A stretch of DNA of 64,000 bases, from the NCBI RefSeq assembly GCF_020076305.1, contig NZ_JAIQXE010000001.1, positions 1,426,001 through 1,490,000 of the forward strand, given 5' to 3'. Position 1 is the stretch's first letter. The number at the start of each line of letters is the position of its first letter. The position numbers and the translations under genes were made by a program. Source of the stretch: Flavihumibacter profundi. Its GTDB lineage: Bacteria; Bacteroidota; Bacteroidia; Chitinophagales; Chitinophagaceae. The notes under the pieces were generated by a model, which searched no databases, was not told where the DNA came from, and worked only from the letters and a program-made list of their open reading frames with translations. This document shows, piece by piece, positions 49,947-64,000 of the stretch.

Positions 49947-50399
49947 TTATTTATTAATATGATTAGCTGTAAGATCAGCAGGCATCTGCTTGCCAAGTAC
50001 CTCCAGTTTCACTTTTGCAAGTCCATGACCTGTGTATCCCAATTTTTTTGCAGCAGATCCTGATAAGTCAATAAGGCGGGGATTTTTATAATGTAATCGG
50101 TCGTTGATTTTTACAATAACTGATTTATGGTTGCGCTGGTTAGTTACTTTTACCCAGGTCCCTAACGGTAATCCATTATGCGCTCCAGTCATTTTCTTAC
50201 TGTCATATACTTCTCCGTTAGCTGTTTTTCTTCCATTGAACTTATTCGAATAAAAACTGGCGGTGCCATATTGAATTTTTGCGTTGCTGACCTTTCTTTT
50301 CTTTTTAGCAGGTACCGGGCTTTGGTCTGTAGTTTGGGCAGTAACCGTTCCGGTATACAACAAACCCAGCGCAATGATCATTCTTGGAAGGAATTTCAT
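49947..50399 (-). CDS. rlpA: RlpA-family septal ring lytic transglycosylase-like protein
   Basis: The 150-residue protein has a signal peptide (about residues 1-22) and the double-psi beta-barrel: 'YGTASFYSNKFNGRKTANGEVYDSKKMTGAHNGLPLGTWVKVTN' and 'VIVKINDRLHYKNPRLIDLSGSAAKKLGY'. The catalytic-acid region 'FNGRKTANGE' and the NDR motif are conserved. RlpA proteins cleave naked glycan strands or bind them at the septum. No SPOR domain is present. It follows the L,D-transpeptidase gene by 3 bases, forming a cell-wall operon. Confidence 0.92.
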   Translation of the reverse strand: MKFLPRMIIALGLLYTGTVTAQTTDQSPVPAKKKRKVSNAKIQYGTASFYSNKFNGRKTANGEVYDSKKMTGAHNGLPLGTWVKVTNQRNHKSVIVKINDRLHYKNPRLIDLSGSAAKKLGYTGHGLAKVKLEVLGKQMPADLTANHINK

Positions 50400-50402
50400 A
50401 GA

Positions 50403-52130
50403 TCAGTTAATTGGTTTGGACCTGAAATACCGTTGGGAAAGCAGGCGGTCATCTTCATAAATATCCTCATAAAACCTGATTTTATTATCCTGTCCTTCAC
50501 AAGTAAAATATCGTATAAATATTGGAACATGCAAAAAATCAGTTATAACATGCTTCTCTTGGCGGTTAATCCAGGCTTTTAACGTATCGGGGGGGTATCT
50601 TATTTCATTGTTCCGTACCAAGAAATCAGATAATTTTTCCCATTCCTGTACACGGACACATCCATGGCTAAGCGATCTTATGCTGCGAGAAAACAATCCC
50701 CTCGCGTTGGTATCATGGAGGTAAACATCATATTTATTACGAAAGTTGAACTTCATTAAACCAAGTGAATTATCATCGCCCTGGCGCTGGCGGAGCAGGT
50801 ATGGAAAATGTTCCTTATTCAGTTTAAACCAATCAATGGAAGCCGGATTGATCACACTATCATTTTTATCGACCACCATCAGGTTTTGCTTATCAAGATA
50901 ATCGATACTCTTTTGGATTTTGGGGAGCATTTCCTTAAAAATGATACTGTACGGCACTGTCCATTGTGGATAAGTTATAAAATTCACAATTTCACTGGTC
51001 AGCACTGGTGTACGGGTTTTTGGTGCCCCGACTATTATTTTTGATTGCAAAACAAGGGTATCGGCATCAATAACAGAAAGCTGGTATGCTGGCAGGTTAA
51101 CCCACAAGTAAGTCTCGGGCATTTGCGTGCCGAGTTGTTTATACCGGTCAAGGTTAATAACAATCCGCTTGAATTTTTCCCAATTGGTATTATTCAGGCT
51201 CCCGATTGTTTGTTCCGCAGCAATCCCTGTAGTACGGATACCATTTTTTTGCTGATATTGCCTGACTGCCAATTTATACTTTAATGTATCAGCGGAGTCC
51301 CAATTTTTATCCAGTATTCCTGCTTCCTGCAATCTTTTGGCAACCTGGCTTATTACTTCCAGTGAATCTTTATTGGGATAAATTATATAGGTATATTCTT
51401 TAAACTTAACCGAATCAAGAAAAGCGGGCAATGCTTGGCGGATTGCCTTGTAACCAGCAAGGGTTGGCTCCAATGCTTCGAGTGATTGCCTGATCTGGTT
51501 TGTAACGAGCGCTTCCTTTAATAACCTAACCAGTTCTTCATCCCTGAAAACAGAATCGGGCCTGAGGGTGGTACTATCTCTTTCAAGGTGGCCGAACTTC
51601 AAATGTCTGGCCATTTGGAAGAAGGCATCCGTCATTAAAATATCGGTCCTGGTCCATAAGGCAATGTTCTTCCGGTTTATTGTGTCTATTACAATTTTAT
51701 TGCGTGCCGATAAAATAGCCGGGAAATGATAATCAGATGGGAACAGGCCATATTCTTTTGATTTACTGATTAGCGTGAATAAGGTATCCCCTGCTGGCAA
51801 CCATTGAGCTGCATTGCTCCACAACGGCTGGAAATCGCCGGTTTCATAAAGCCGGGATAAAAGGTGGTAATTGGCAATTTGGGTTGAATCATTCAGCTTA
51901 CCTTCTGAAGCCTCAAGAAATGAAACCAATTTATTGAGTTGTTCATTTGCTTTTGGTTGCACCTCTTCCGGCTTATTTACAATTACCACTTCATCCGGTG
52001 CTTTTTGGGGGGTGGCATTTTTACAGGAAGGGATTATTGCAAATATTATAGGAAAAAAAACTGCCATCAACACATGGTTGAACAATACTTTTCTTTTGAA
52101 CATCTTAAAATGCAGATTCATTATTTTCAT
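50403..52130 (-). CDS. L,D-transpeptidase, YcbB/LdtD-like lipoprotein
   Basis: The 575-residue enzyme has a lipoprotein signal (ending FAIIPSC; the start may be ATG 52130, 52121 or 52103), an N-terminal scaffold, a peptidoglycan-binding-like segment ('LAVRQYQQKNGIRTTGIAAEQTIGSLN') and a C-terminal YkuD domain with the catalytic Cys in 'RSIRSLSHGCVRVQEWEKL'. It makes 3-3 crosslinks or attaches proteins to peptidoglycan. It leads an operon with rlpA. The adjacent, divergent vanX-like pseudogene also concerns the cell wall. Confidence 0.92.
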   Translation of the reverse strand: MKIMNLHFKMFKRKVLFNHVLMAVFFPIIFAIIPSCKNATPQKAPDEVVIVNKPEEVQPKANEQLNKLVSFLEASEGKLNDSTQIANYHLLSRLYETGDFQPLWSNAAQWLPAGDTLFTLISKSKEYGLFPSDYHFPAILSARNKIVIDTINRKNIALWTRTDILMTDAFFQMARHLKFGHLERDSTTLRPDSVFRDEELVRLLKEALVTNQIRQSLEALEPTLAGYKAIRQALPAFLDSVKFKEYTYIIYPNKDSLEVISQVAKRLQEAGILDKNWDSADTLKYKLAVRQYQQKNGIRTTGIAAEQTIGSLNNTNWEKFKRIVINLDRYKQLGTQMPETYLWVNLPAYQLSVIDADTLVLQSKIIVGAPKTRTPVLTSEIVNFITYPQWTVPYSIIFKEMLPKIQKSIDYLDKQNLMVVDKNDSVINPASIDWFKLNKEHFPYLLRQRQGDDNSLGLMKFNFRNKYDVYLHDTNARGLFSRSIRSLSHGCVRVQEWEKLSDFLVRNNEIRYPPDTLKAWINRQEKHVITDFLHVPIFIRYFTCEGQDNKIRFYEDIYEDDRLLSQRYFRSKPIN

Positions 52131-52150
52131 TTTCTAAAACCAGACCAAAC

Positions 52151-52870
52151 ATGTACAATATACTTATTCAGTTTCATTTGCTTCTCTCTGGATTGCCGGT
52201 ATTTTGCAACAGCAGCTTTGGCCAGGCAACAAAAAATACGACGATTACCATAATGCAAGATGTGAAAAAATTCCGGGAGGTTGTCAGCACTGATCCGAAT
52301 CAACGGATGGTCGATTTAACAAACTATATACCAAACCTGGTATTTGACCTGAAATACAGTAAAAAAGACAATTTCACACACCAGGTATTGTACCCGGCTA
52401 AAATGTATTACAGTTTTTTGCGGCTGCCGGCGGCAAGTGCCCTGCGGGAAATCTTTGAAGCATTGCAAAAAGAGGGAATCGGGGTAAAAGTTTATGACGC
52501 TTACCGGCCTTATGACGCTACTTAACTGATGTGGAATATTGTCTGAGATGAGCGTTACACGGCAAACCCGGCCAAAGGAAGTGGACATAACCGTGGAATC
52601 TCAATAGATTTAACGTTGCTGGATACACGAAGTGGACAAGAATAACCGATGGGAACTTCGTTTGATAATTTCAGTGATTCAGCACATAACAACTCCAGGC
52701 AGTTGCCGGAATATATATTTTCAAACAGGAAAAAGCTAAAGACAGTAATGGGAACTCATGGCTCTAAAGCAATGAAAACGGAATGGTGGCATTAAAGCTG
52801 GCCAAACGAAGGAAGGTTTGATATTCTGAATTTCAAATTCAGCCAGCTAAGAAAACTGGAACATGATTAG
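52151..52870 (+). pseudogene. Decayed D-alanyl-D-alanine dipeptidase (VanX/DdpX, M15 family)
   Basis: One reading frame runs from ATG 52151 to TAG 52868 (240 codons), interrupted by TAA 52523, TGA 52544, TAA 52643 and TAA 52793 but with no frameshift. The translated pieces match VanX-type dipeptidases: a signal region, 'IPNLVFDLKYSKKDNFTHQVLYPA', 'VYDAYRPYDAT', then 'NPAKGSGHNRGISIDLTLLDTRSGQE', 'FDNFSDSAH' and 'KTEWWH', which carry the His/Asp zinc ligands and the catalytic Glu. Only the first 124 residues are translated. It is divergent from the L,D-transpeptidase and would have cleaved D-Ala-D-Ala. Confidence 0.9.
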
Positions 52871-53160
52871 ATTTCAATAACAGCAGTAACAGCTTCAATA
52901 TTAATTGGACCGTATATATGCGGAAATGTTTCTTTATTCGAGGGAGACCATTCGTGTATCAGCTGGCTGCGTAAAAGTGAAGGATCGATAACTAATTTTA
53001 CCAATCCGGTTTTATCGGCATAATATCGTTCCAGGGTGGCCGCGACCTGGCTATCTTCTGAAGCATGGATAAATCCCTCGTCAATCAATGAACTGGTTTC
53101 ATAATAGCCCATGGTAAGGGCTAAGTCCCATTCTCTTTTGTAGGCTATATGATATATCAT
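52867..53160 (-). CDS. DUF952 family protein
   Basis: The 97-residue protein has the DUF952 opening 'MIYHIAYKREWDLALTMGYY' with 'GFIHASEDSQVAATLERYY' and 'TFPHIYGPINIEAVTAV'. The family is small and cytoplasmic, and its structure recalls ADP-ribosyltransferases; its function is unknown. Its stop overlaps the end of the vanX pseudogene by four bases. It lies 37 bases after aroC, so it may be the last gene of the aromatic operon transcript. Confidence 0.88.
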   Translation of the reverse strand: MIYHIAYKREWDLALTMGYYETSSLIDEGFIHASEDSQVAATLERYYADKTGLVKLVIDPSLLRSQLIHEWSPSNKETFPHIYGPINIEAVTAVIEI

Positions 53161-53197
53161 CGTTTTTTATTGCTTAACGCGTAAATGCAATTGGTTA

Positions 53198-54193
53198 TTA
53201 TTTCATTACCCTTGGCACCCTGTTTACCAGCATCATCAGGTCAGCCAGGACCATAGCTGTTACCGCTTCAAGTACAACCGGAACGCGTAAGGCAATACAA
53301 AGGTCATGGCGTCCTTTTACAGAAAACACTTCCTGTTCACCGGTTTCCCAGTTTAAGGTAACCTGGTCCTTTGGCGTTGAAGAAGTGGGTTTAATGGCAA
53401 TACGGAATACTAGTTCATTTCCATTGGTTATACCCCCTACCACCCCACCGGCATGGTTGGTACGGGTTTTACCTGAGTTGTCTTCAATGGAATCATTATG
53501 GTCAACACCGAACATTTTTGCAGCCTGGAAACCAGTGCCAAATTCAATACCCCGAACAGCCGGAATAGCAAAAACGGCATGACTGATCAAAGATTCAACC
53601 GAATCGAAGAAGGGCTCCCCCAGGGAGGCGGGCAATCCATTCACCCTGCATTCAACAATACCACCTATGGAATCCTTGGCATCAATGGCTTTCTGTAACC
53701 CTTTCTCAATATCCGCCTCGCCGCCAATTTCCAGGATGTTTGCCGAAACTGATATTCCTTTCAGGATTTTCTTTGCCACAACACCGGCTGCCACTAACCC
53801 AACGGTTAACCGTCCGCTGAAATGGCCACCGCCCCTGAAGTCTTCAAATCCTCCAAATTTTTGGTGGGCAACAAAATCCGCATGCCCGGGACGGGGAACT
53901 GCCCTTTGTTTTTCGTAGTCGCCGGAACGGGTATTCTTATTTTCAAAATAAATAGTCATGGGCGCGCCTGTTGCGCGACCATTGAACAACCCGGTTTGAA
54001 AAACAGGGATATCGTCTTCTTTTCGGGGTGTTGTACCTTTTTGTACGCCACCCTTTCTTCTTTCAATATCCTCCACAAAATCTGCTGCATCAAGGGTCAG
54101 ACCAGCAGGAACACCATCCAGCACTACACCCACTGCGGGTCCATGAGATTCGCCTACTATTGTAACCCTGAATAATTTTCCAAATGCGTTCAT
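53198..54193 (-). CDS. aroC: Chorismate synthase
   Basis: AroC converts EPSP to chorismate using reduced FMN as cofactor. The 331-residue protein opens with 'GKLFRVTIVGESHGPAVGVVLDGVPAGL', has the flavin and phosphate regions 'RRKGGVQKGTTPRKEDDIPVF' and 'GHADFVAHQKFGGFEDFRGGGHFSGRLT', and 'TNHAGGVVGGITNGNELVFRIAIKPTSS'. It is slightly shorter than the usual 350-360 residues because its C-terminus is trimmed. It is the last shikimate gene of the operon, 28 bases after aroA. The His residues of the active site are present. Confidence 0.96.
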   Translation of the reverse strand: MNAFGKLFRVTIVGESHGPAVGVVLDGVPAGLTLDAADFVEDIERRKGGVQKGTTPRKEDDIPVFQTGLFNGRATGAPMTIYFENKNTRSGDYEKQRAVPRPGHADFVAHQKFGGFEDFRGGGHFSGRLTVGLVAAGVVAKKILKGISVSANILEIGGEADIEKGLQKAIDAKDSIGGIVECRVNGLPASLGEPFFDSVESLISHAVFAIPAVRGIEFGTGFQAAKMFGVDHNDSIEDNSGKTRTNHAGGVVGGITNGNELVFRIAIKPTSSTPKDQVTLNWETGEQEVFSVKGRHDLCIALRVPVVLEAVTAMVLADLMMLVNRVPRVMK

Positions 54194-54221
54194 TGGTTAA
54201 TATTACTTTTCACAGCTATGG

Positions 54222-55499
54222 TTAAACGTACTGAACGTATGCTCCCAATTGTGCAAGGTGATCAAAAAAGTTTGGATATGATTTATTAATAGCTTCTGCT
54301 GCATCAATAGACATGGGTCCGGTGGCATTCAAAGCTGCCACAGCACCAGCCATGGCAATCCGGTGGTCGTGGTGCGAATACAACCGGGCACCTTTAACTC
54401 CGTTTCCACCCCTGATAATCATAAGATCATCCTGCAATTCAACAGGAACCCCCATTTTCCCGAATTCTTCCTGAAGGGTTATGGCCCTGTTACTTTCTTT
54501 GTGTGCCAGCCTTGTTACACCTTTAATAACTGTGGTTCCGGAACAATAAGCCGCAAGGGCAACCAGCGGGGGAAAAAGATCGGGACAATCGGTCGCGTCG
54601 AATTCAAATCCTTTAAGGGGCATTGGCCTGAGGGCAATCTGGTTGGCTTCAATACTAATTCCTGCACCACAACTGATCAATGCGTTCAATATGGCTTTAT
54701 CGGCCTGTGTTGAGAAAACATCCAGGCCGTGAATAATGATATTGCCAGAAATCGCGCCAGCCACCAATAAAAATGCTGCACCGCTCCAATCACCTTCTAC
54801 AGTATATTCCCGGTGTTTTGCTGCATCCGGGATATAAGAACTTCCAACAAAATAAAAAGCTTCATAATTCATGTTTTCCGGAACTGGCAAACCGAAAGCT
54901 TTCATTACTGCAAGGGTAAGGTCTACATAAGGTTTGCTTTTCAGGTTGGTCACTTTAACAGTAACATTTTTAGCTCCGGATGCTGCATAAGCCATAAGGA
55001 TTCCGGTAAGGAATTGTGAACTTAAAGAACCATCAATAGTAATATCGCGAGGCTGCAGTGGACCCTTTACTACCAGGGGCAGGCGGCCTTCCCTGGTTTT
55101 CACGGAAACCCCAAGTTGGGGCAGTACTTCGTCAAAAAAGTCCATTGGCCTCGTTACAAGGCTGCCTTCCCCTGTAATGGTGATCTCCTCTTCATTCATT
55201 GCCACTAGTGGCGTAAACATCCTGATGCCTAAGCCGCTTTCCCCGCAATTAACGGTATGCTCACGGGCATGAATACCGGAACTACTGATTATAAGTTGCC
55301 GGGCTTCCTCTTTTACAGTAGCGCCGAGGGCATGTATGACACCCAGTGCAGCTTTGTCATCATTGGAATGGCCCGGATTTATCACCATGGTTGTACCGCC
55401 GGCAGCAAGTGCTGCGGCACAGGCCCTTTGCATTGAACTCTTCGATGCTGGTGCATATATTTCCCCATGCAATACAGATGGTTTAATTGTTGCGATCAT
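54222..55499 (-). CDS. aroA: 3-phosphoshikimate 1-carboxyvinyltransferase (EPSP synthase)
   Basis: AroA transfers enolpyruvate from PEP to shikimate 3-phosphate. The 425-residue protein shows 'GEIYAPASKSSMQRACAAALAAGG' (substrate-binding Lys/Ser), 'VNCGESGLGIRMFTPLVAM', 'SSQFLTGILMAYAASG', 'ATDCPDLFPPLVALAAYC' and 'HHDHRIAMAGAVAALNA'. The usual LGNAGT motif is replaced by NCGESGLGIRM, a glyphosate-relevant difference characteristic of divergent class II-type enzymes. It follows aroB by 16 bases. Confidence 0.95.
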   Translation of the reverse strand: MIATIKPSVLHGEIYAPASKSSMQRACAAALAAGGTTMVINPGHSNDDKAALGVIHALGATVKEEARQLIISSSGIHAREHTVNCGESGLGIRMFTPLVAMNEEEITITGEGSLVTRPMDFFDEVLPQLGVSVKTREGRLPLVVKGPLQPRDITIDGSLSSQFLTGILMAYAASGAKNVTVKVTNLKSKPYVDLTLAVMKAFGLPVPENMNYEAFYFVGSSYIPDAAKHREYTVEGDWSGAAFLLVAGAISGNIIIHGLDVFSTQADKAILNALISCGAGISIEANQIALRPMPLKGFEFDATDCPDLFPPLVALAAYCSGTTVIKGVTRLAHKESNRAITLQEEFGKMGVPVELQDDLMIIRGGNGVKGARLYSHHDHRIAMAGAVAALNATGPMSIDAAEAINKSYPNFFDHLAQLGAYVQYV

Positions 55500-55515
55500 A
55501 ACTGAGGTAGAAACA

Positions 55516-56535
55516 TTATAATTGTTCGATGATTTTTTTAACCTGCTCCAGCGGAAGGGTATGCACTATGCCTTTCCCGATTTTTTGCAGCAGGATATAG
55601 TGAAGGCTATCCCTCTCCCTTTTTTTATCGTGTTTCAAAACGTCGAAAACCTTGCTGCTATTGAAACGTGCATATGTTGGAAGTTGGTACTGGCTAATAA
55701 CATCCACTACTTTTTCAGCACCTTTAAAACCAAGGATTGTTTCCGATAAGTGTGCTGCATATGTCATGCCGATAGCTACTGCCTGTCCGTGGGACAATTC
55801 AAACTGGTTCTCCAGGGCATGTCCCAGTGTATGACCAAAATTAAGCAGTTTGCGGTCACCTTGCTCAGTTTCATCAACCTGAACAACCTTAGTTTTAAGC
55901 AGGGCGTTCCGGCGTATTAAAGCTGCGAGTTCTTTTTTCTTTACCTTGTACCAATCTATATCGTGGGTGGCCAACTGGCGGAACATTGCCGCATCTTTAA
56001 TACAGGCGTGCTTGATGATTTCTGCAAAGCCATTCTGCCATTCGGTTTCAGGCAAAGTTTTCAATACCCCTGCGTCAAAAAGCAAAAAAGAAGGTTGCCT
56101 GATAATACCGACCAGGTTCTTGTAAACACCTACATCGACCCCGTTTTTGCCTCCAATGGAAGCATCAACCATTGCCAGCAGGCTGGTTGGCACAAAACCA
56201 ACCCTGATACCCCGCATGTACACTGCACCGATATACCCGGTAAGGTCTGTGATCACACCGCCGCCGATACCAATCAGCGTGGTTTTCCGGTCAGCCTCCA
56301 TTTCTATCAGCGTATCAATTACTGCATCTGCGGTTTGTTGGCTTTTGTATTCCTCACCTGGCTTTAGTACAATTGTATTCCATCCTTTTAATTGCTTTTG
56401 ATACAATGAAAAAATATGATCGTCGGTAATGACGATAGAATATTTCTTATCTGCTACCTGGCTGAGATTCGACAAAGACGCATTGAAATAATACTCTGTA
56501 ACAGCATGTCCAATCCTGATCTTTTTTGTTTCCAT
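55516..56535 (-). CDS. aroB: 3-dehydroquinate synthase
   Basis: AroB cyclises DAHP to dehydroquinate using NAD and a divalent metal. The 339-residue protein has 'LIGIGGGVITDLTGYIGAVYMRGI', 'VPTSLLAMVDASIGGKNGVDV', 'KNLVGIIRQPSFLLFDAGVLKTLP' and the metal ligands in 'RKLLNFGHTLGHALE' and 'SHGQAVAIGM'. The N-terminal NAD domain is a little shorter than in E. coli. It follows the DAHP synthase-chorismate mutase gene by 19 bases within the aromatic operon. Confidence 0.96.
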   Translation of the reverse strand: METKKIRIGHAVTEYYFNASLSNLSQVADKKYSIVITDDHIFSLYQKQLKGWNTIVLKPGEEYKSQQTADAVIDTLIEMEADRKTTLIGIGGGVITDLTGYIGAVYMRGIRVGFVPTSLLAMVDASIGGKNGVDVGVYKNLVGIIRQPSFLLFDAGVLKTLPETEWQNGFAEIIKHACIKDAAMFRQLATHDIDWYKVKKKELAALIRRNALLKTKVVQVDETEQGDRKLLNFGHTLGHALENQFELSHGQAVAIGMTYAAHLSETILGFKGAEKVVDVISQYQLPTYARFNSSKVFDVLKHDKKRERDSLHYILLQKIGKGIVHTLPLEQVKKIIEQL

Positions 56536-56554
56536 GAATTTCAGGGTATTGGGC

Positions 56555-57646
56555 TTAACTGTTCATTATTTTGTTCTGGTGGTTGATACTTTCCATATGC
56601 ACAGCATCAAAATACTTGGTGATGAATTCTTTGCTCAATCCAAGTTTATCACCTTTCAAAAATGCGCGCTCAAGGATTTCATTCCAGCGATTGGTTTGCA
56701 AAATGGTGATATTGTTATTCTTCTTGTAAGAGCCGATTTGTTCAGCAACTTTCATTCGCTGACCCAAAATCTGCATCAGTTCATCATCGAGGTGATTGAT
56801 TTGCTGGCGCAATTTTTCCAGCGCTGCATGATAAGCATCAGAATCCACATCTTCCCTTCTCCAGGTAATAGCATCAAGCATTTCTGCCAGTTTTTCGGGG
56901 GTAACCTGCTGCTTGGCGTCACTCCATGCGTTATCCGGGTCAATATGGCTTTCGATCATCAGTCCGTCAAAATCAAGGTCGATCGCTTTTTGCATTACAT
57001 CCTGCAGAATATCGCGGCGTCCGCAAATATGAGATGGATCGTTAATGATCATCAATTCAGGATTACGGCGTTTCATTTCGATAGCAAGGTGCCACATTGG
57101 AGCATTCCTGTATTCTGTATTACCATAGGATGAAAATCCACGGTGAATAAGTCCAATTTGTTTGATACCTGCTTTTGCAACACGTTCTACCGCACCCAAC
57201 CATAATTCAAGGTCAGGATTTATCGGGTTCTTTATGAGTACCGGAACATCGGCACCTTTAAGGGCATCTGCCACTTCCTGAACACTGAAAGGGTTAACTG
57301 TAGTTCTTGCACCAATCCACAGAATATCTACATCAAAATGGAGCGCATCTTCAACCTGCTTAGCTGTGGCTACTTCTACCGCTACAGGCAAACCGGTCAG
57401 TTTCCTTGCCTGCTGTAACCAGGGCAGGCCTTTTGTACCGATACCTTCAAATGAACCCGGCCGTGTGCGGGGTTTCCAGATACCGGCCCTAAGTACATCT
57501 ACTTTCCCGGTTTTTGCCAGCCGCTGAGCGGTTTCAATAACCTGCTCTTCGGTTTCGGCACTGCATGGTCCGGAAATAATTAAAGGACGTTTAGCCCAGG
57601 CCTCCTGGGTGATTTCTTTCATTGTTTTTGTTGCTGTTGCTTGCAT
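56555..57646 (-). CDS. Bifunctional 3-deoxy-7-phosphoheptulonate synthase / chorismate mutase
   Basis: The 363-residue protein joins a type I-beta DAHP synthase (about residues 1-260: 'PLIISGPCSAETEEQVIETAQRL', 'AGIWKPRTRPGSFEGIG', 'LIHRGFSSYGNTEYRNAPMWHLAIEM', 'SHIDPDNAWSDAKQQVTPEKL') with a C-terminal AroQ-type chorismate mutase ('LEKLRQQINHLDDELMQILGQRMKVAEQIGSYKKNNNI'). It therefore starts the shikimate pathway and later makes prephenate. In this family the mutase domain often mediates prephenate feedback on the synthase. It follows tyrA by 77 bases. Confidence 0.96.
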   Translation of the reverse strand: MQATATKTMKEITQEAWAKRPLIISGPCSAETEEQVIETAQRLAKTGKVDVLRAGIWKPRTRPGSFEGIGTKGLPWLQQARKLTGLPVAVEVATAKQVEDALHFDVDILWIGARTTVNPFSVQEVADALKGADVPVLIKNPINPDLELWLGAVERVAKAGIKQIGLIHRGFSSYGNTEYRNAPMWHLAIEMKRRNPELMIINDPSHICGRRDILQDVMQKAIDLDFDGLMIESHIDPDNAWSDAKQQVTPEKLAEMLDAITWRREDVDSDAYHAALEKLRQQINHLDDELMQILGQRMKVAEQIGSYKKNNNITILQTNRWNEILERAFLKGDKLGLSKEFITKYFDAVHMESINHQNKIMNS

Positions 57647-57723
57647 GATATGTAAATTGTAAAGTTACTTTTTTTGTTGGGTAGTAAGCCGCCGATGGTA
57701 TGCAGGGACTCCTGATTCACAAT

Positions 57724-58593
57724 TCAGCCTAATATCCTCCTGATCTTATTTGCGTTTTCAATCAATTCCTGCAGGTATTCATAATTTTCCTTTTCAAGGC
57801 ATGATTTGAATTTCCGGAGCTGCGTAATGTGCTCATTTAATACATCCAGCACGTTATCGCGGTTTTGCATAAAGATGGGTACCCACATGGCCGGATTACT
57901 TTTGGCCAGCCTTACCGTACTTTCAAAACCCGCACTGGCCAGTTCGAAAATTGCCTGGTCTTCCCGTTCCTTCTCTAATACAGTATTCGCCAATGCGAAT
58001 GATGTGATGTGGGAAATATGACTCACATAAGCTGCATGCAAATCATGCGCCACGGCTTCCATTTCCAGCAGGTGCATTCCAATTTTCCGGTATACCTGCC
58101 TAACCCATTCCACTGCATCAGCATCACTTTCACCCGCATTACAGATAACTACCGCCTTATTTTCAAAAGCTGATTTTACCGCAGCTTCAGGACCACTGTA
58201 CTCAGTACCCCACATAGGATGTGTAGCCACATAACGCCCTCTTTTGGGGTGGCCGGCAACCACGTTAACCAGCTGGGATTTTGTTGATCCGGCATCAAAT
58301 ACAATCTGATGGTTCACACGATCCAGTACTTTCGGCAAAATGGTGATCATTTTATCAACGGGTATTGCCAACACAATCGCTTCACTTTGTGCAATAGCTT
58401 CTTCAAGTGGCAAAATTTCATCTATTAATCCAAGTTCCAGGGCTTTTGCTGCATGCTCTGCATTACTCTCAACACCGATTATCCCGGCAGCCATGCCCTT
58501 TTCATTGAGTTGCAAGGCCAGCGACCCTCCTATTAAGCCTACACCGACAATGGTTATTTTTTTCCTTTCCATAGTATTAAATCCACTAAACAT
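57724..58593 (-). CDS. tyrA: Prephenate dehydrogenase
   Basis: TyrA oxidises prephenate to 4-hydroxyphenylpyruvate with NAD. The 289-residue protein has the nucleotide loop 'ITIVGVGLIGGSLALQLNEKG', 'AIVLAIPVDKMITILPKVLD', 'VFDAGSTKSQLVN', and the active-site His in 'YVATHPMWGTEYSGPEAAV' plus 'HAAYVSHISHITSFALANTV'. No ACT regulatory domain is fused. ATG 58593 overlaps the aminotransferase stop as TAATG; the inner ATG 58572 (MERKKITIVG) is an equally good start by family length. Confidence 0.95.
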   Translation of the reverse strand: MFSGFNTMERKKITIVGVGLIGGSLALQLNEKGMAAGIIGVESNAEHAAKALELGLIDEILPLEEAIAQSEAIVLAIPVDKMITILPKVLDRVNHQIVFDAGSTKSQLVNVVAGHPKRGRYVATHPMWGTEYSGPEAAVKSAFENKAVVICNAGESDADAVEWVRQVYRKIGMHLLEMEAVAHDLHAAYVSHISHITSFALANTVLEKEREDQAIFELASAGFESTVRLAKSNPAMWVPIFMQNRDNVLDVLNEHITQLRKFKSCLEKENYEYLQELIENANKIRRILG

Positions 58594-59771
58594 TAACTGT
58601 TAATAGCAACAGGAATGGATACCCGTATACGATCAATTGCCTGTTGCAGTTTTTCCTCCGGACTACAAAGGCTAACCCTGATAAACCCGTTTCCTGCGCT
58701 TCCAAATATGCCGCCTGGCGTAATGAAAACATTGTTATTATACAAAATGGCATCACTCAGCGCATACCCATCTGCATAAGCAGAAGGAATTTTCGCCCAA
58801 ACGAACATACCCACCTGCTGCCTGTTATACGTGCAATCGAGCATATCCAGCAAAGAATACACCAGGTCCCGGCGGCGGGCATAAATGGCATTAACACTTT
58901 TATACCAGTCAGTACCTAATTGCAGTGCCCTGGCAGCGGCGAGTTGAACCGGCAAAAACATACCACTGTCCATATTGCTTTTGAACCGGATGATCTCATC
59001 AATCCTTTCCTTTGCTCCAGCCAGCATACCTACGCGCCAGCCGGCCATATTATGGCTCTTGCTGAGTGAATTCAATTCAACCACCACTTCCTTTGCACCA
59101 GGCACAGCCAAAAGGCTTACCGGATGTTCATTTAAAATGAAACTGTATGGATTATCATGACAGATCAGAATATTATGTTGCCGGCCAAATGCAACCAATC
59201 TTTCAAAAAATCGCCTGGAAGGTAACTGCCCGGTGGGCATATGCGGGTAGTTTACCCACATCAGTTTAACTTTCGACAAATCTTGTGCAGCTATAGCATC
59301 AAGGTCGGGTTCCCAGTTCAGGGTTTCAACCATTTCATACGGAACTGCCTTACCTCCTGCAAGTTTTACCGCACTGCTGTAAGTTGGGTATCCCGGATTG
59401 GGAATCAGCACTTCATCGCCTTCATTGAGGTAAGTCATACAAATATGCATGATACCTTCCTTGCTTCCAATAAGTGGAAGTATCTCAGATTCAGGATCAA
59501 GCTGAACGCCATACCAGGTTGAATACCAATCGCTCATTGCCTTGCGCAATACCGGCGATCCCTTATAATTCTGGTAGGCATGTACGTTAGGTTTCGCAGC
59601 CTCTTCCTGTAAAACCTTAACCACATCGGGGTGCGGGGGAAGGTCGGGGCTGCCGATACCCAGGTTTATAATGGCTTTGCCTGCCTTATTGAGGGTATCA
59701 ATTTCGCGTAGTTTTTGTGAAAAATAGTATTCACCAATTCCATTCAAACGATTGGCGGTTGCTATGGTCAT
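58593..59771 (-). CDS. PLP-dependent aminotransferase (aspartate/aromatic type)
   Basis: The 392-residue class I/II aminotransferase shows 'AIINLGIGSPDLPPHPDVV', 'GSKEGIMHICMTYLNEGDEVLIPNPGYPTY', and the PLP-lysine motif 'LNSLSKSHNMAGWRVGMLAG' with an Arg for the substrate carboxylate near 'FIRVSLCSPEEKL'. Within the operon it lies between pheA and tyrA and probably transaminates phenylpyruvate and 4-hydroxyphenylpyruvate in the last step to Phe and Tyr. Its ATG overlaps the pheA stop as ATGA and its stop overlaps tyrA, so the three genes are tightly coupled. Confidence 0.93.
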   Translation of the reverse strand: MTIATANRLNGIGEYYFSQKLREIDTLNKAGKAIINLGIGSPDLPPHPDVVKVLQEEAAKPNVHAYQNYKGSPVLRKAMSDWYSTWYGVQLDPESEILPLIGSKEGIMHICMTYLNEGDEVLIPNPGYPTYSSAVKLAGGKAVPYEMVETLNWEPDLDAIAAQDLSKVKLMWVNYPHMPTGQLPSRRFFERLVAFGRQHNILICHDNPYSFILNEHPVSLLAVPGAKEVVVELNSLSKSHNMAGWRVGMLAGAKERIDEIIRFKSNMDSGMFLPVQLAAARALQLGTDWYKSVNAIYARRRDLVYSLLDMLDCTYNRQQVGMFVWAKIPSAYADGYALSDAILYNNNVFITPGGIFGSAGNGFIRVSLCSPEEKLQQAIDRIRVSIPVAINS

Positions 59772-60595
59772 ATTCTGCCGTTTTTATAAATGCCATACAC
59801 CTGCAAGGCAACGGTCATGGGACGGATTGCCTCGATGATGGTATTAAATTGCTCAATATTATCAAATTCCATATCAGCGTGAAAACTGTATTCCCAGTCA
59901 CTTCCCGGGATAGGAAAACTCTGAAGCTTACTCAGGTTGATGCCTCCTTCTGCAATTTGGCTAAGTACACGCGCCAGGCTCCCCCTTGAATGATCGGTAT
60001 GGAAATTCACCGAAGCTTTATTAGCATCGGCAATAACGCTTGTATTTTCAGGCCGCATTAACACCAGGAAGCGTGTATAATTATTCTTCATGGTATGGAT
60101 ATTCGGTGCAAGTACATCCAGTTCAAACAATTCAGCAGCTAATTTGCTGGCAATGGCAGCAGCATGCCTGTGCCTTTTCTGGTGGATGATTTTCGCACTG
60201 AGTGCAGTGTCCTCGGTTTCTACCAGTTTCCAATCATATTTTTCAAGAAAATCAATGCATTGCAGGATAGCCATAGGGTGGGAATGAACTTCCCTGATAT
60301 CTTCAAACGATACTCCCGGGTTCACCAGTAGGTTTTGTTTGATTTGGAGGTAAACTTCCCCTACCACGCGCAGGTTGCTTTTCTGCAGCAGGTTGTAATT
60401 CGGGAGTATGCTGCCGGCAATGGAATTTTCAATGGCCATTACACCACCTTCACTTTCCCTTTTGTTGGCAGCAATCTTTACCACTTCCCTAAATGTATCG
60501 CAGGGGATAACTTCCACCTGCCTGCCGAAGAATTGCTGGGCAGCCACCTGGTGGAAACTGCCTTCATAACCTTGTATTGATACTCTTGTTGCCAT
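59768..60595 (-). CDS. pheA: Prephenate dehydratase
   Basis: PheA decarboxylates and dehydrates prephenate to phenylpyruvate. From ATG 60595 the 275-residue protein has 'VSIQGYEGSFHQVAAQQFFG', 'GGVMAIENSIAGSI' and the catalytic 'NNYTRFLVLMRP' (TRF motif), then an ACT domain. The ACT motifs known as GALV and ESRP read GSLA and QSFP here ('SRGSLARVLSQIAEGGINL' then 'LQSFPIPGSDWEYSF'), so Phe feedback may be altered. The start at 60595 is preceded directly by the attenuator terminator, which excludes the longer TTG start at 60673. It is first in the aromatic operon. Confidence 0.95.
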   Translation of the reverse strand: MATRVSIQGYEGSFHQVAAQQFFGRQVEVIPCDTFREVVKIAANKRESEGGVMAIENSIAGSILPNYNLLQKSNLRVVGEVYLQIKQNLLVNPGVSFEDIREVHSHPMAILQCIDFLEKYDWKLVETEDTALSAKIIHQKRHRHAAAIASKLAAELFELDVLAPNIHTMKNNYTRFLVLMRPENTSVIADANKASVNFHTDHSRGSLARVLSQIAEGGINLSKLQSFPIPGSDWEYSFHADMEFDNIEQFNTIIEAIRPMTVALQVYGIYKNGRI

Positions 60596-60631
60596 AAAAA
60601 ACAAGAGTCCCGGCTTTTTGCCGGGACTCTT
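60596..60631 (-). terminator. Attenuator terminator directly upstream of pheA
   Basis: Bases 60620-60631 and 60603-60614 form a perfect 12-bp hairpin (minus-strand AAGAGTCCCGGC, loop AAAAA), followed by TGTTTTTT that runs up to the pheA ATG at 60595. A terminator between a leader ORF and the first structural gene makes sense only as a conditional one. Its 5' arm has a 5-bp GC match to the leader's GCCGG (60682-60686), a possible antiterminator pairing. Confidence 0.88.
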
Positions 60632-60651
60632 TATGTTAGTTGTTGATGATC

Positions 60652-60747
60652 TTATTTTGTTGATCCTACACAAAGCATCGCCGGCCTTCTGCCTGTAAAA
60701 AAGTAGAAGTAAAAATAAAATCGGCCAAAAGAATTGGGTTGAATCAT
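60652..60747 (-). CDS. Phe/Tyr-rich leader peptide of the aromatic operon
   Basis: A minus-strand ORF from ATG 60747 to TAA 60652 encodes 31 residues beginning MIQPNSFGR and continuing with an aromatic run at residues 10-17 (F-Y-F-Y-F-Y-F-F). With F7 this gives six Phe and three Tyr codons. It ends 20 bases before the hairpin that precedes pheA. This is the architecture of the pheA and trp leaders of proteobacteria: ribosome stalling at aromatic codons when charged tRNA-Phe or tRNA-Tyr is scarce should prevent termination. Recognition is from sequence only. Confidence 0.88.
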   Translation of the reverse strand: MIQPNSFGRFYFYFYFFTGRRPAMLCVGSTK

Positions 60748-60810
60748 GTTGTAAAAATAACGAATGAAATCAAATGAAAAAAAGTTTTTTTCCTTACAAT
60801 TGTTAGTTTT

Positions 60811-61380
60811 TCACTGCGAGGGCAAGCGTTTCCGCTGTTCCTCATCTATTTTTTTAAAAAGGTGAAAGGGTTTAAACGTACGCCAGTTGCTGAGTTCCAC
60901 CAATTCCAGATAACGGTTCAATTTAGCTTTCCTGAAATCATATTGGGTCTGTACAGGCATATTTATCAGTACTGTCCAGCCATTATTTTCAATCATTTCT
61001 TCATACCATTCTTCATAATAATCGCGGTCTCCGCTGTGAAAATTCAATACATTTTCAGCAATAAAAATGAATTTGTAAATGCCTTCGGCCTGGAATTTAT
61101 CAATAACGTCCCTTTTCAGGCTCATTATATCATTTTCAATAGCATCATTCCATTCGCCCAGCAATTCAATGATAGCATATCTTTCTTCATAATCGGCCAT
61201 TATCACTTTCAGGTATAGTGTCCTGGAACCAAATTCATCCCATTGCGGATGTATATAATAGTTGTATATAGTTTGCGAATATTCAAATTCAGAATAGTTG
61301 CGGCCATAGAAAGGTGAGCGTTCGTCCTCTTCGCTGATGTATATGTGCCGCCAATTATAAAATGGTTCGATTTCGTGCAT
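60811..61380 (-). CDS. Conserved hypothetical protein
   Basis: The 189-residue soluble protein is rich in aromatic and acidic residues ('EIEPFYNWRHIYISEEDERSPFYGRNYSEFEYSQTIYNYYIHPQWDEFG' region). I do not recognise a domain, and no signal peptide, membrane helix or catalytic motif is visible. It lies 14 bases after murQ in the peptidoglycan-recycling operon and so may be related to it or simply be co-transcribed. The gene continues up to the leader region of the aromatic operon. Confidence 0.75.
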   Translation of the reverse strand: MHEIEPFYNWRHIYISEEDERSPFYGRNYSEFEYSQTIYNYYIHPQWDEFGSRTLYLKVIMADYEERYAIIELLGEWNDAIENDIMSLKRDVIDKFQAEGIYKFIFIAENVLNFHSGDRDYYEEWYEEMIENNGWTVLINMPVQTQYDFRKAKLNRYLELVELSNWRTFKPFHLFKKIDEEQRKRLPSQ

Positions 61381-61394
61381 ATCCTGCAGGCAAT

Positions 61395-62207
61395 TTACTG
61401 CCTTTCCGCTGCTTTTTTAACGCTGCCCCATTTAAGCAGGAGATCCCTCGCTTTCTGGTAGTCATCAAGTGAAAGTTGTTTCATAAGCATTTTGGTTCCG
61501 CGATCCAGCAATTTCTCATTTGTGAGTTGCATGTTTACCATTTTATTATCTTCCACCCTGCCTATCTGGATCATTGTGCAGGTGGAAATCATATTAAGCA
61601 CAAGTTTCTGGGCTGTACCACTTTTCATCCGGGTACTGCCAGTTACAAATTCAGGTCCCACTATCACTTCGATGGGAAAATCAGCAACAGCGCTTAGCGG
61701 TGAATTTGGATTACAGGAAATTGATCCCGTAACAATGCTGTTTTTTTGGCACTGCTGCAAAGCACCTATTACATAAGGAGTAGTACCACTGGCGGCAATC
61801 CCGATTACAATATCTTTTTCACTCACCCCATATGCCTGAAGGTCAAGCCAGCCTTGTTTAAAATCGTCTTCTGCATTTTCAACCGGTTTCTGGATCGCTT
61901 CGGTTCCCCCCGCAATAAGGCCAATGACTATGCCGTATGGCATGCCAAAGGTGGGCGGAATTTCACTGGCATCCAAAATACCCAACCGGCCACTGGTTCC
62001 TGCGCCGATATAAAAAAGGCGTCCACCGGCCAGCAATCGGTCTGTGACAACATTAACCAGCTTTTCAATTTGGGGAATGGCTTTTGCAACCGCCTGGGGA
62101 ACCACATGATCTTCCTTATTCATGGCAGTTAAGCAATCCATAACTGACATTTCCTCCAGATTGTGATAATGACTGTCTTGTTCAGAAAAGCTTACAAATT
62201 CAGGCAT
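61395..62207 (-). CDS. murQ: N-acetylmuramic acid 6-phosphate etherase
   Basis: MurQ cleaves the lactyl ether of MurNAc 6-phosphate to give GlcNAc 6-phosphate in peptidoglycan recycling. The 270-residue SIS-domain protein shows 'GGRLFYIGAGTSGRLGILDASEIPPTFG' (sugar-phosphate loop and catalytic Glu), 'IAGGTEAIQKPVENAEDDF' (second catalytic Glu) and 'GIAASGTTPYVIGAL', plus 'GSTRMKSGTAQKLVLNMIST'. It is about 28 residues shorter than the E. coli enzyme at the C-terminus. It follows the sugar kinase gene by 49 bases. Confidence 0.96.
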   Translation of the reverse strand: MPEFVSFSEQDSHYHNLEEMSVMDCLTAMNKEDHVVPQAVAKAIPQIEKLVNVVTDRLLAGGRLFYIGAGTSGRLGILDASEIPPTFGMPYGIVIGLIAGGTEAIQKPVENAEDDFKQGWLDLQAYGVSEKDIVIGIAASGTTPYVIGALQQCQKNSIVTGSISCNPNSPLSAVADFPIEVIVGPEFVTGSTRMKSGTAQKLVLNMISTCTMIQIGRVEDNKMVNMQLTNEKLLDRGTKMLMKQLSLDDYQKARDLLLKWGSVKKAAERQ

Positions 62208-62256
62208 GGGTGAAATATTCGTAGTTCCATTTATTCCGGGGAATAATTGCCGGCAA

Positions 62257-63096
62257 TCAGGAATGGTATTTGACTAATCCCTCCATGGGATGTTGCAAAA
62301 TAGTGCCGGCTTCCAGTTCATAAGATGAACAGAGTTCGAGGATCACATCCCTGAATCCAAAGGCTACCCCACCAACAAAGTGGATAGGCAGCTTCCAGCT
62401 TTCATTGTATTTGCATATATGGTGAAAAAAGAAATCATTCAGTCCGTCTTCTATGATATTCTCCACCATAAAGTGACCCCGGTTTTCAGCCAGGAAAAGA
62501 GCAAAACCAGCCAGGAAACGATTAGGCAGGGGTTGCTTATATACGTGGTCGAGTATGTCGACTTCGTTCATTTTATATTTATCTTCAAACCGGAATTTCA
62601 GTTCCTCATCAAAGGTCTTATAAAGGTAGTATTGGATTACTTTTTTACCAAGATAGGACCCGCTGCCTTCATCGCCTAGTACGTAACCCAAGCCCGGGCT
62701 ATTCTTCACAATTTTCTTCCCGTTAAAATAGCAGGAATTACTGCCGGTTCCCAAAATGCAGGCGATGCCTTTCTGGTCGAGGCAAACTGCTCTTGCAGCG
62801 CCGAGCAGGTCGATATCTACAACAATATCAATAACAGGAAATATCCTTTGCAGGGATTTCTGGATCATTTTCCGGTTTTCAATGGATTTACATCCTGTAC
62901 CATAAAAGAATATTGCGTCTATCTTAAACCTGTGGATTCCCGGATAGAGGTCCCTGCGAACCAGCTCTTCAATTTGCTGGCTGTCCAGGAAATAAGGACT
63001 AATTCCAAGAGTAAAAACAGTTTTTTTGATCTTGCCCTTGTCCACCACACACCATTCGCACTTTGTTGATCCGCTATCGGCTATTAGGATGGCCAT
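62257..63096 (-). CDS. N-acetylglucosamine/N-acetylmuramic acid kinase (BadF/BadG family)
   Basis: The 279-residue ASKHA-fold kinase begins 'AILIADSGSTKCEWCVVDKG' (phosphate 1 loop), contains the conserved 'GIACILGTGSNSCYFNG' (phosphate 2) and 'GLGYVLGDEGSGSYLGKKVIQYYL' segments. It phosphorylates amino sugars with ATP. Next to murQ it most likely supplies MurNAc 6-phosphate (MurK-like, as in Tannerella and Clostridium) or GlcNAc 6-phosphate. It is the first gene of the three-gene unit with murQ and the hypothetical protein and diverges from the protease gene. Confidence 0.9.
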   Translation of the reverse strand: MAILIADSGSTKCEWCVVDKGKIKKTVFTLGISPYFLDSQQIEELVRRDLYPGIHRFKIDAIFFYGTGCKSIENRKMIQKSLQRIFPVIDIVVDIDLLGAARAVCLDQKGIACILGTGSNSCYFNGKKIVKNSPGLGYVLGDEGSGSYLGKKVIQYYLYKTFDEELKFRFEDKYKMNEVDILDHVYKQPLPNRFLAGFALFLAENRGHFMVENIIEDGLNDFFFHHICKYNESWKLPIHFVGGVAFGFRDVILELCSSYELEAGTILQHPMEGLVKYHS

Positions 63097-63223
63097 ATTG
63101 ATTCATTAATAATAAAACGAAAATAAAACTATGTTCACAAACTACGGTTAATAATGTACAGCTATAAAACAGGCTTACAGACTGATGGTATCAATTTCGT
63201 AATTTGCAATCCGAATTGAAGAT

Positions 63224-64000
63224 ATGAACGAGAAAAGTAAATTAAAACTTTGGTTACCCCTATTATTTTCAGTGATGATGATTATTGGAATGGTGCTGGG
63301 TTACAGGTTGCGCAGTAATACCCAGGCTGTTGGCAGTATGTTTAAGTTTTCCCAAAAGCGGTCCCCTATCCAGGAAGTATTGGATCTGGTAATGTTGAAA
63401 TATGTTGATAAAGTAGACAGTGATACTTTGGGCAATGAGGCGATCCAGGGCATGCTTTCAAAACTTGATCCGCATTCCAGCTTTATCCCGGCTAACCAGC
63501 TTGGTGACGTAAATGAGGTTTTACAGGGAAATTTCCAGGGCATTGGCATAGAATTCCAGATATTCCAGGATACTGTTAATGTTTTGAGTGTACTTCCGGG
63601 TGGCCCAAGTGAAAAAGCAGGACTGATGGTAGGCGATAAATTTTTGAAAGTAGGCGATAGTGTTGTAACAGGTAAGATCAGTTCTGATGGGATCAGGAAG
63701 TTACTGCGTGGCCCTGGCGGATCAACAGTAAATACGACCCTTTTACGCAATGGCCGGGTGCTCGAAGCAAGGATACAGCGGGGTATCATTCCAATTCCAT
63801 CTCTCGAAGCCGGATACCTGATCGCTCCCGGAACGGGTTATATGCGACTTAATAAATTTTCTGAAAATACCTATGAGGAATTTATGGCCAGCCTGGAACA
63901 GTTGCAGGGACTTGGTATGCAATCGTTGATACTTGATCTTCGCGGAAATGGAGGTGGTATTTTGGGTGAAGCCATTGATATTGCCGATGAATTCCTGGAT
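63224..64000 (+). CDS. C-terminal processing peptidase, S41 family (partial, C-terminus beyond window)
   Basis: From ATG 63224 the frame runs 259 codons to the window edge. It begins with a transmembrane/signal segment ('LWLPLLFSVMMIIGMVLGY'), then 'DPHSSFIPA', a PDZ domain ('IGIEFQIFQDTVNVLSVLPGGPSEKAGLMVGDKFLKVGD', 'IRKLLRGPGGSTV') and the beginning of the S41 protease fold ('YMRLNKFSENTYEEF', 'LILDLRGNGGGILGEAIDIADEFL'). The catalytic Ser/Lys lie beyond 64000. The family trims periplasmic or exported proteins from their C-terminus. Confidence 0.93.
   Translation, partial: MNEKSKLKLWLPLLFSVMMIIGMVLGYRLRSNTQAVGSMFKFSQKRSPIQEVLDLVMLKYVDKVDSDTLGNEAIQGMLSKLDPHSSFIPANQLGDVNEVLQGNFQGIGIEFQIFQDTVNVLSVLPGGPSEKAGLMVGDKFLKVGDSVVTGKISSDGIRKLLRGPGGSTVNTTLLRNGRVLEARIQRGIIPIPSLEAGYLIAPGTGYMRLNKFSENTYEEFMASLEQLQGLGMQSLILDLRGNGGGILGEAIDIADEFLD

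Follow-up and report, generated by a model that had tools for sequence, protein, structure and literature searches.

The window analysed here, a 64,000-nucleotide stretch of the 4.87 Mb Flavihumibacter profundi genome, carries on its minus strand a short open reading frame (ORF) rich in aromatic codons, a terminator hairpin and seven genes running from pheA to aroC, all co-directional with the leader (Table 1). The leader ORF holds six Phe and three Tyr codons, and 20 nt separate its end from the hairpin. An earlier note on this DNA had described a 31-codon ORF with these codons and a perfect 12-bp hairpin with a U-tract reaching up to the pheA ATG, and we find both in the window sequence. The 191-nt leader region also folds more stably than its shuffled counterparts (-45.9 kcal/mol vs -31.4 +/- 3.8, none of 200 shuffles being as low). 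The note had further stated that all seven genes are required for Phe and Tyr, but the last four, which belong to the shikimate pathway, also feed Trp and other chorismate products. Rfam covariance models run against positions 50000-64000 of the window gave five matches (E up to 5), all below the gathering score, with no leader, T-box or riboswitch among them. Directly upstream of the leader lies a co-directional ORF of 189 aa (60811-61380, minus strand), for which no NCBIfam model matched at E up to 0.001.

Table 1. Features of the pheA leader and its operon, in positions of the window.
Feature	Position	Strand	Sequence or basis
Rival -7 box	60778-60771	minus	TTCATTTG; read from sequence
Candidate -7 box, 4 nt before leader ATG	60759-60752	minus	TATTTTTA; consensus TAnnTTTG, one mismatch
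Leader-peptide ORF, 31 codons, F7 and run F10-Y-F-Y-F-Y-F-F17	60747-60652	minus	reads MIQPNSFGRFYFYFYFFTGRRPAMLCVGSTK
Antiterminator 5' strand, within leader ORF, directly after aromatic run	60685-60665	minus	duplex energy (-23.9 kcal/mol), covariation
Antiterminator 3' strand, includes terminator 5' arm	60639-60620	minus	duplex energy, covariation
Intrinsic terminator hairpin, perfect 12-bp stem, 5-nt loop	60631-60603	minus	AAGAGTCCCGGC-AAAAA-GCCGGGACTCTT
Terminator T-tract (G, then six T after stem), adjoins pheA ATG	60601-60596	minus	
Gene 1, pheA, prephenate dehydratase, start 60595	59768-60595	minus	best match, below curated NCBIfam cut-off
Gene 2, PLP-dependent aminotransferase	58593-59771	minus	best match, below curated NCBIfam cut-off
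Gene 3, tyrA, prephenate dehydrogenase	57724-58593	minus	NCBIfam best match
Gene 4, DAHP synthase-chorismate mutase	56555-57646	minus	best match, below curated NCBIfam cut-off
Gene 5, aroB (AroB)	55516-56535	minus	NCBIfam best match
Gene 6, aroA (AroA)	54222-55499	minus	NCBIfam best match
Gene 7, aroC (AroC)	53198-54193	minus	NCBIfam best match

The arrangement recurs throughout the family Chitinophagaceae. By its pheA, the F. profundi genome is nearest, among named relatives, to Flavihumibacter species. A pheA match was obtained in 169 of 244 family genomes, and from these we took a first set of 110 upstream regions, among them that of the window itself; about 90 belong to the best matches and 20 to weaker ones. 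Five further loci followed. Every region of the first set contains an ORF with at least six F/Y codons in 12, and 109 of them reach at least seven, compared with only 2/110 reverse complements, so that an aromatic ORF before pheA is not a matter of chance. A terminator was detected automatically in 109/110; at the remaining locus, L102, the hairpin is weaker and spans 9 bp. In a set of 80 named loci, which overlaps widely with the same genomes, the 79 with enough upstream sequence all carry an F/Y-rich ORF (78 with at least seven F/Y, one with six), and an aminotransferase gene follows pheA in 80/80. The comparison across relatives that the earlier note had called for thus confirms the layout of leader plus terminator before pheA as real and conserved in sequence. 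Taken as a mere DNA string, seven consecutive F/Y codons are no rarity, with three matches in the genome, two of them the pheA leader site, against ten for a reversed control pattern; position and conservation are therefore what carry the weight. The only other such run (L243) sits in an unrelated stretch and was rejected as a second copy of the leader.

A covariance model (R1), built from 61 sequences and applied with a threshold of E up to 0.01, gave three matches in the F. profundi genome, the best of them the pheA leader site. Run against the 244 family genomes, it matched 161 at the same threshold, chance matches among them. We inspected 16 matches away from known sites: six (E 1.7e-7 or better) are leaders, four before pheA and two before an aminotransferase-tyrA pair (L304 and L307), and the other ten (E 1.2e-6 or weaker) were discarded as not being leaders. 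The genome of L304 has a pheA elsewhere, with no such leader in the 0.5 kb upstream that was examined. This is the one family pheA locus inspected that lacks the leader, which in this genome precedes aminotransferase-tyrA instead. Judging from these sequences, the leader accompanies the aromatic operon also when a gene other than pheA comes first.

How might such a leader switch? The earlier note had suggested an antiterminator made of a 5-bp GC pairing. A pairing alternative to the terminator does exist, but it is much longer than that: the leader segment GCCGG.GAT.CTTTGTGT pairs with ACATAAAG.GTC.CCGGC over 16 pairs, with 2 more besides, and its 3' strand occupies 11/12 bases of the terminator 5' arm plus the bases before it. 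Duplex energies were compared in 83 non-redundant loci (L102, with no automatically detected terminator, was left out of the energy and alignment work). The mean is -23.1 kcal/mol vs -9.3 for mononucleotide-shuffled leader segments, and 77/83 loci beat all 100 of their shuffles; L098, at -5.4 and almost without an antiterminator, is the one clear exception in the 83. Pairing a strand with its own partner rather than one swapped in from another species also gives a lower energy (-23.1 vs -19.0; 0/2000 permutations), a difference of which relatedness can explain part. Since a MAFFT alignment of all 83 (A1) misregistered two sequence groups, pairs were counted on separate alignments of 61 (A2) and 20 sequences (A3), with L098 and L110 excluded.

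In A2, 86.3% of antiterminator cells pair, and sliding the partner by one column reduces this to 50-53%. Nine of the 17 pairs change on both sides (reached by 2/500 shuffles), giving 26 double-change cells (0/500). For the terminator, 95.6% of A2 cells pair and there are 39 double-change cells (0/500), with double changes at four pairs, a number matched by 143/500 shuffles. Pairing is similarly high in A3 (89.7% antiterminator, 98.8% terminator), and antiterminator covariation there is weak (two pairs, reached by 266/500 shuffles; six cells, by 6/500). The predicted antiterminator is, then, mutually exclusive with the terminator and supported by covariation, weakly so in the smaller group A3.

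The position of the antiterminator relative to the aromatic codons is in register with an assumed ribosome footprint. We masked the RNA from -15 to +14 around the P site and folded it before the terminator 3' arm exists. For the window, the modelled antiterminator stays available (0.98) as long as the A-site codon is F17 or any before it. With codon 19 there the value is 0.45, and with codon 20 it is 0.06; no antiterminator is seen at codons 21-28, but it reappears from codon 30 onward (0.70) and reaches 0.98 at the stop. Of the 83 loci, 76 have a value above 0.5 when the last aromatic codon occupies the A site, 11 when the ribosome is one codon past the run, and none from two to seven codons past, so the folds with and without a ribosome over the aromatic codons, which the earlier note had proposed as a check, place the switch just past the end of the run. 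The G/C core of the antiterminator starts 7-12 nt past the run in 74/83 (in the other nine the search picked an earlier string), and hence the end of the run is the point from which a ribosome would start covering the pairing strand. In this model, with its assumed footprint, the antiterminator is free while the ribosome is stalled on the control codons and blocked once it has moved past them. With the ribosome at the stop codon the antiterminator is above 0.5 in 51/83 loci, and with no ribosome it forms in 78/83, so that the model predicts no termination in the absence of leader translation; on its own it accounts for termination neither in an untranslated leader nor after ribosome release. 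The first codons may pair with the antiterminator strand in a possible protector (1:2) helix, of the kind that would favour termination when the leader is not translated; its energy points that way (-16.6 vs -14.3 for swapped partners; 0/2000), but only 10/83 of these helices beat all 100 shuffles. In the complete RNA of the window the terminator always wins at equilibrium (1.00), which means that antitermination must be kinetic.

We consider it highly probable, on this sequence evidence, that the leader works by ribosome-mediated transcription attenuation, reading charged tRNA-Phe and, by extension, tRNA-Tyr. Conservation, the covarying antiterminator and the modelled switch all support the Phe/Tyr leader-peptide attenuator that the earlier note had placed before the operon. 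The order of F and Y codons, the leaders at L304 and L307 and the similar architecture outside the family speak for it as well; speaking against it are the equilibrium preference for the terminator, the antiterminator that forms without a ribosome or with one at the stop codon, L098, the weak covariation in A3, the reported insensitivity of Corynebacterium glutamicum aroR to Tyr and the family pheA locus that lacks a leader. Transcription would begin at the leader ATG or right beside it, and a ribosome would load on the nearly leaderless RNA while this is being made. In a shortage of either Phe or Tyr, we infer that translation would stall once an F or Y codon enters the A site, leaving the RNA after the run uncovered to capture the terminator 5' arm as it emerges; this capture would delay the terminator, and RNA polymerase would read into pheA-aroC. 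When both amino acids are plentiful, the ribosome would pass the run and cover the stretch behind it, the terminator would form, and transcription would stop just before pheA.

Two other roles for these elements have to be weighed. The hairpin might act on translation by hiding the pheA start until translation of the leader opens it, and the stem in the window does end just 7 nt before the pheA ATG. Across the loci, however, the distance between stem and pheA ranges from about 5 to about 186 nt (values after L031 being approximate) while the T-tract is kept; our hairpin search did require a T-tract, a demand that every locus satisfied or came close to satisfying. This variable spacing makes us disfavour occlusion of the start codon as the main mechanism, and we regard a translational role as very unlikely. 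It is also conceivable that the product of the ORF is itself functional, either as a small protein or as an arrest peptide that works through its C-terminal sequence, as the recurrence of the motif (R/K)PGMLLL in many leaders might indicate. But the conserved RNA block coincides with the antiterminator strand, 21/60 group-1 leaders end inside this block, 22/60 leaders of that group read its TTGTT-like string in another frame, and the second sequence group has SRVVFAKA instead. Frame changes within a conserved RNA block speak against a functional peptide, which we think extremely improbable.

Which amino acids would the attenuator sense? Both are represented in every run: among 109 leaders, Tyr never numbers fewer than two and Phe never fewer than three. 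Their order is not random either, with 427 switches between F and Y in the 83 loci vs 348 +/- 11 for random order (0/2000) and, counting only the 65 distinct strings, 327 vs 272 +/- 10 (0/2000). This excess alternation fits a switch that would sample both amino acids along the whole permissive stretch, and avoidance of poly-U or common ancestry may contribute to it. Under a Phe-only version of the same attenuator, the Tyr codons would be tolerated aromatics or poly-U breakers and the alternation a product of avoiding long T runs or of shared ancestry. The last aromatic codon is Phe in 79/83 loci, in keeping with such a version, and the Phe-Tyr-Phe leader aroR of Corynebacterium glutamicum is reported to respond to Phe, with Tyr having no effect (PMC11802643). 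Sensing of Tyr here accordingly stays a prediction. Against Phe-only sensing are the two or more Tyr codons in all 109 runs, alternation beyond chance even among distinct strings, an operon that makes Tyr too, and a footprint model in which stalling is effective at every F or Y codon of the run. There is also the single case of L307, a leader upstream of aminotransferase-tyrA with more Tyr codons than Phe, whose genome has no listed pheA match. We take Phe-only sensing as a real possibility that we nevertheless doubt, and infer that both amino acids are read.

The other unusual feature is the proximity of the promoter to the leader. From the candidate box in Table 1, transcription is predicted to start at or near 60747. 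In 63/83 loci a perfect TAnnTTTG has its end no more than 12 nt from the leader ATG, vs a shuffled mean of 1.05; allowing up to one mismatch raises this to 73/83 vs 16.8. The best -7 box lies 4-10 nt from the ATG in 72/83, most commonly at 7. Probable promoters of Flavobacterium johnsoniae are reported to start transcripts 4-5 nt after the box (PMC6847099), and with that spacing most family leaders would have their 5' ends 0 to about 6 nt from the ATG, which suggests that the family's leader mRNA is near-leaderless. Leaderless or very-short-leader mRNAs are reported to make up 5.5% in Flavobacterium psychrophilum (PMC9723704) and about 3.7% in Bacteroides thetaiotaomicron, and Bacteroidota are described as being without Shine-Dalgarno sequences (PMC6847099). 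Outside the family, the -7 box is within 10 nt of the ATG in 3/21 leaders and mostly farther away, so the close box is a trait of Chitinophagaceae.

The leader itself reaches beyond the family. Among 197 genomes from the class Bacteroidia, 58 have a pheA match, 55 of them outside Chitinophagaceae, and we examined 47 of those 55. At least seven F/Y in 12 codons occur at 28/47 loci, as against 1/47 reverse complements, and 21 of the 28 have an automatically detected terminator. In 15 of these 21 the antiterminator beats all 100 shuffles, and in the other six between 1 and 8 of the 100 shuffles do as well or better. The sequences differ from those of the family, yet the pairing strand starts 4-12 nt after the run in these 21. 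Below the threshold, six loci (L202, L206, L210, L221, L223, L237) show shorter aromatic runs plus a terminator by eye, and L194 is doubtful; in 12 of the 47, no aromatic run is seen by eye (seven loci of family f13, two of f16, and L197, L234 and L240). Three of the six (L206, L210 and L223, family f17) have the run YFWFY followed by a terminator, and such leaders might sense Trp besides Phe and Tyr. Whether an attenuator answering to Phe or Tyr, with shortage of either opening the whole operon, extends across much of Bacteroidia, its mRNA being leaderless in Chitinophagaceae, seems to us evenly poised.

The principle is the classic one of ribosome-mediated attenuation. Enterobacterial pheA is likewise preceded by a Phe-rich leader ORF (pheL) and a terminator and controlled by ribosome stalling (PMC11802643). 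Here, in contrast, Tyr codons are mixed in among those for Phe, the control codons precede the pairing strand instead of forming part of it, a whole seven-gene operon lies downstream, and there is no Rfam match. To our knowledge, pheL has no Tyr codons. The aroR leader, before aroF in a DAHP synthase operon, is likewise mixed and works by ribosome-mediated attenuation (PMC11802643), but it has three aromatic codons compared with eight in a row here and comes from another phylum. Closer relatives offer hints: an attenuator was predicted in 2005 for the similar operon pheA>hisHb>aroAI-aroQ>tyrA of B. thetaiotaomicron, of the same phylum, in a table entry that is a prediction only and gives no leader peptide, codons or mechanism (PMC1173090 Table 7). 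In F. psychrophilum, pheA has a structured 5' element conserved in Flavobacteriaceae, its mechanism not described in the text consulted, and leader-peptide attenuation has been suggested for amino-acid operons of that species (PMC9723704). For an RNA starting at the leader peptide there is the trpL transcript of Sinorhizobium meliloti, whose 5' end begins with ATG (PMC7298713), although that system concerns Trp in an alphaproteobacterium and the start site here is only predicted. A Bacteroid-trp element appears as a table row in PMC2864571, and the portions consulted of PMC2965389, PMC4833913 and PMC1183508 hold no further Bacteroidota pheA leader. The earlier note knew of no described pheA leader in Bacteroidota; such a leader had in fact been hinted at in print (PMC1173090, PMC9723704), but we found no account of this one in a literature search that did not extend to the likeliest prior art, Vitreschak 2004 and Lopatovskaya 2010. 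The proposed double-reading version in Bacteroidota is one previously only hinted at, and its distinctive traits are the alternating Phe/Tyr run and the predicted near-leaderless start.

If the proposed attenuator is borne out, a leaderless start would set the ribosome at the very 5' end of the RNA, tightly tied to RNA polymerase without Shine-Dalgarno sites. The leader provides sequence evidence that classical attenuation, for which a ribosome must follow close behind the polymerase, operates in a phylum described as lacking such sites. It also offers a testable account of how Phe and Tyr synthesis may be controlled in many Bacteroidota, where our Rfam search gave no model, and would be a natural example of control with two inputs, Phe or Tyr, its logic legible from codon order.

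The F. profundi genome holds further leaders of this kind. Upstream of hisG (L259) is a His-rich leader, MKQIAQNHYHHFLPSR, with a terminator, and the same is seen at L245-L254 in the genus; a perfect -7 box ends 8 nt before the his-leader ATG at L246, L249, L250, L253, L254 and L259. Upstream of trpE, WWW leaders occur in 13/13 loci (L281-L293, the last being this genome's own), and the F. profundi trp leader has a box with one mismatch, CATCTTTG, that by eye ends 7 nt before an inner ATG. The promoter-to-ATG spacing seen at pheA is therefore shared by the genome's his leader and, with a poorer box, by its trp leader, and the phe/tyr, his and perhaps trp leaders of one genome appear to start at the mRNA 5' end. 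The his and trp leaders of this genome and genus count in favour of the pheA attenuator. No Ile/Val-rich leader was flagged at the two ilvD loci of F. profundi; at four ilvD loci elsewhere in the genus (L269, L270, L272 and L273), Ile/Val-rich leaders (e.g. AVIIVVVVIIPV) do occur upstream, each followed by a terminator.
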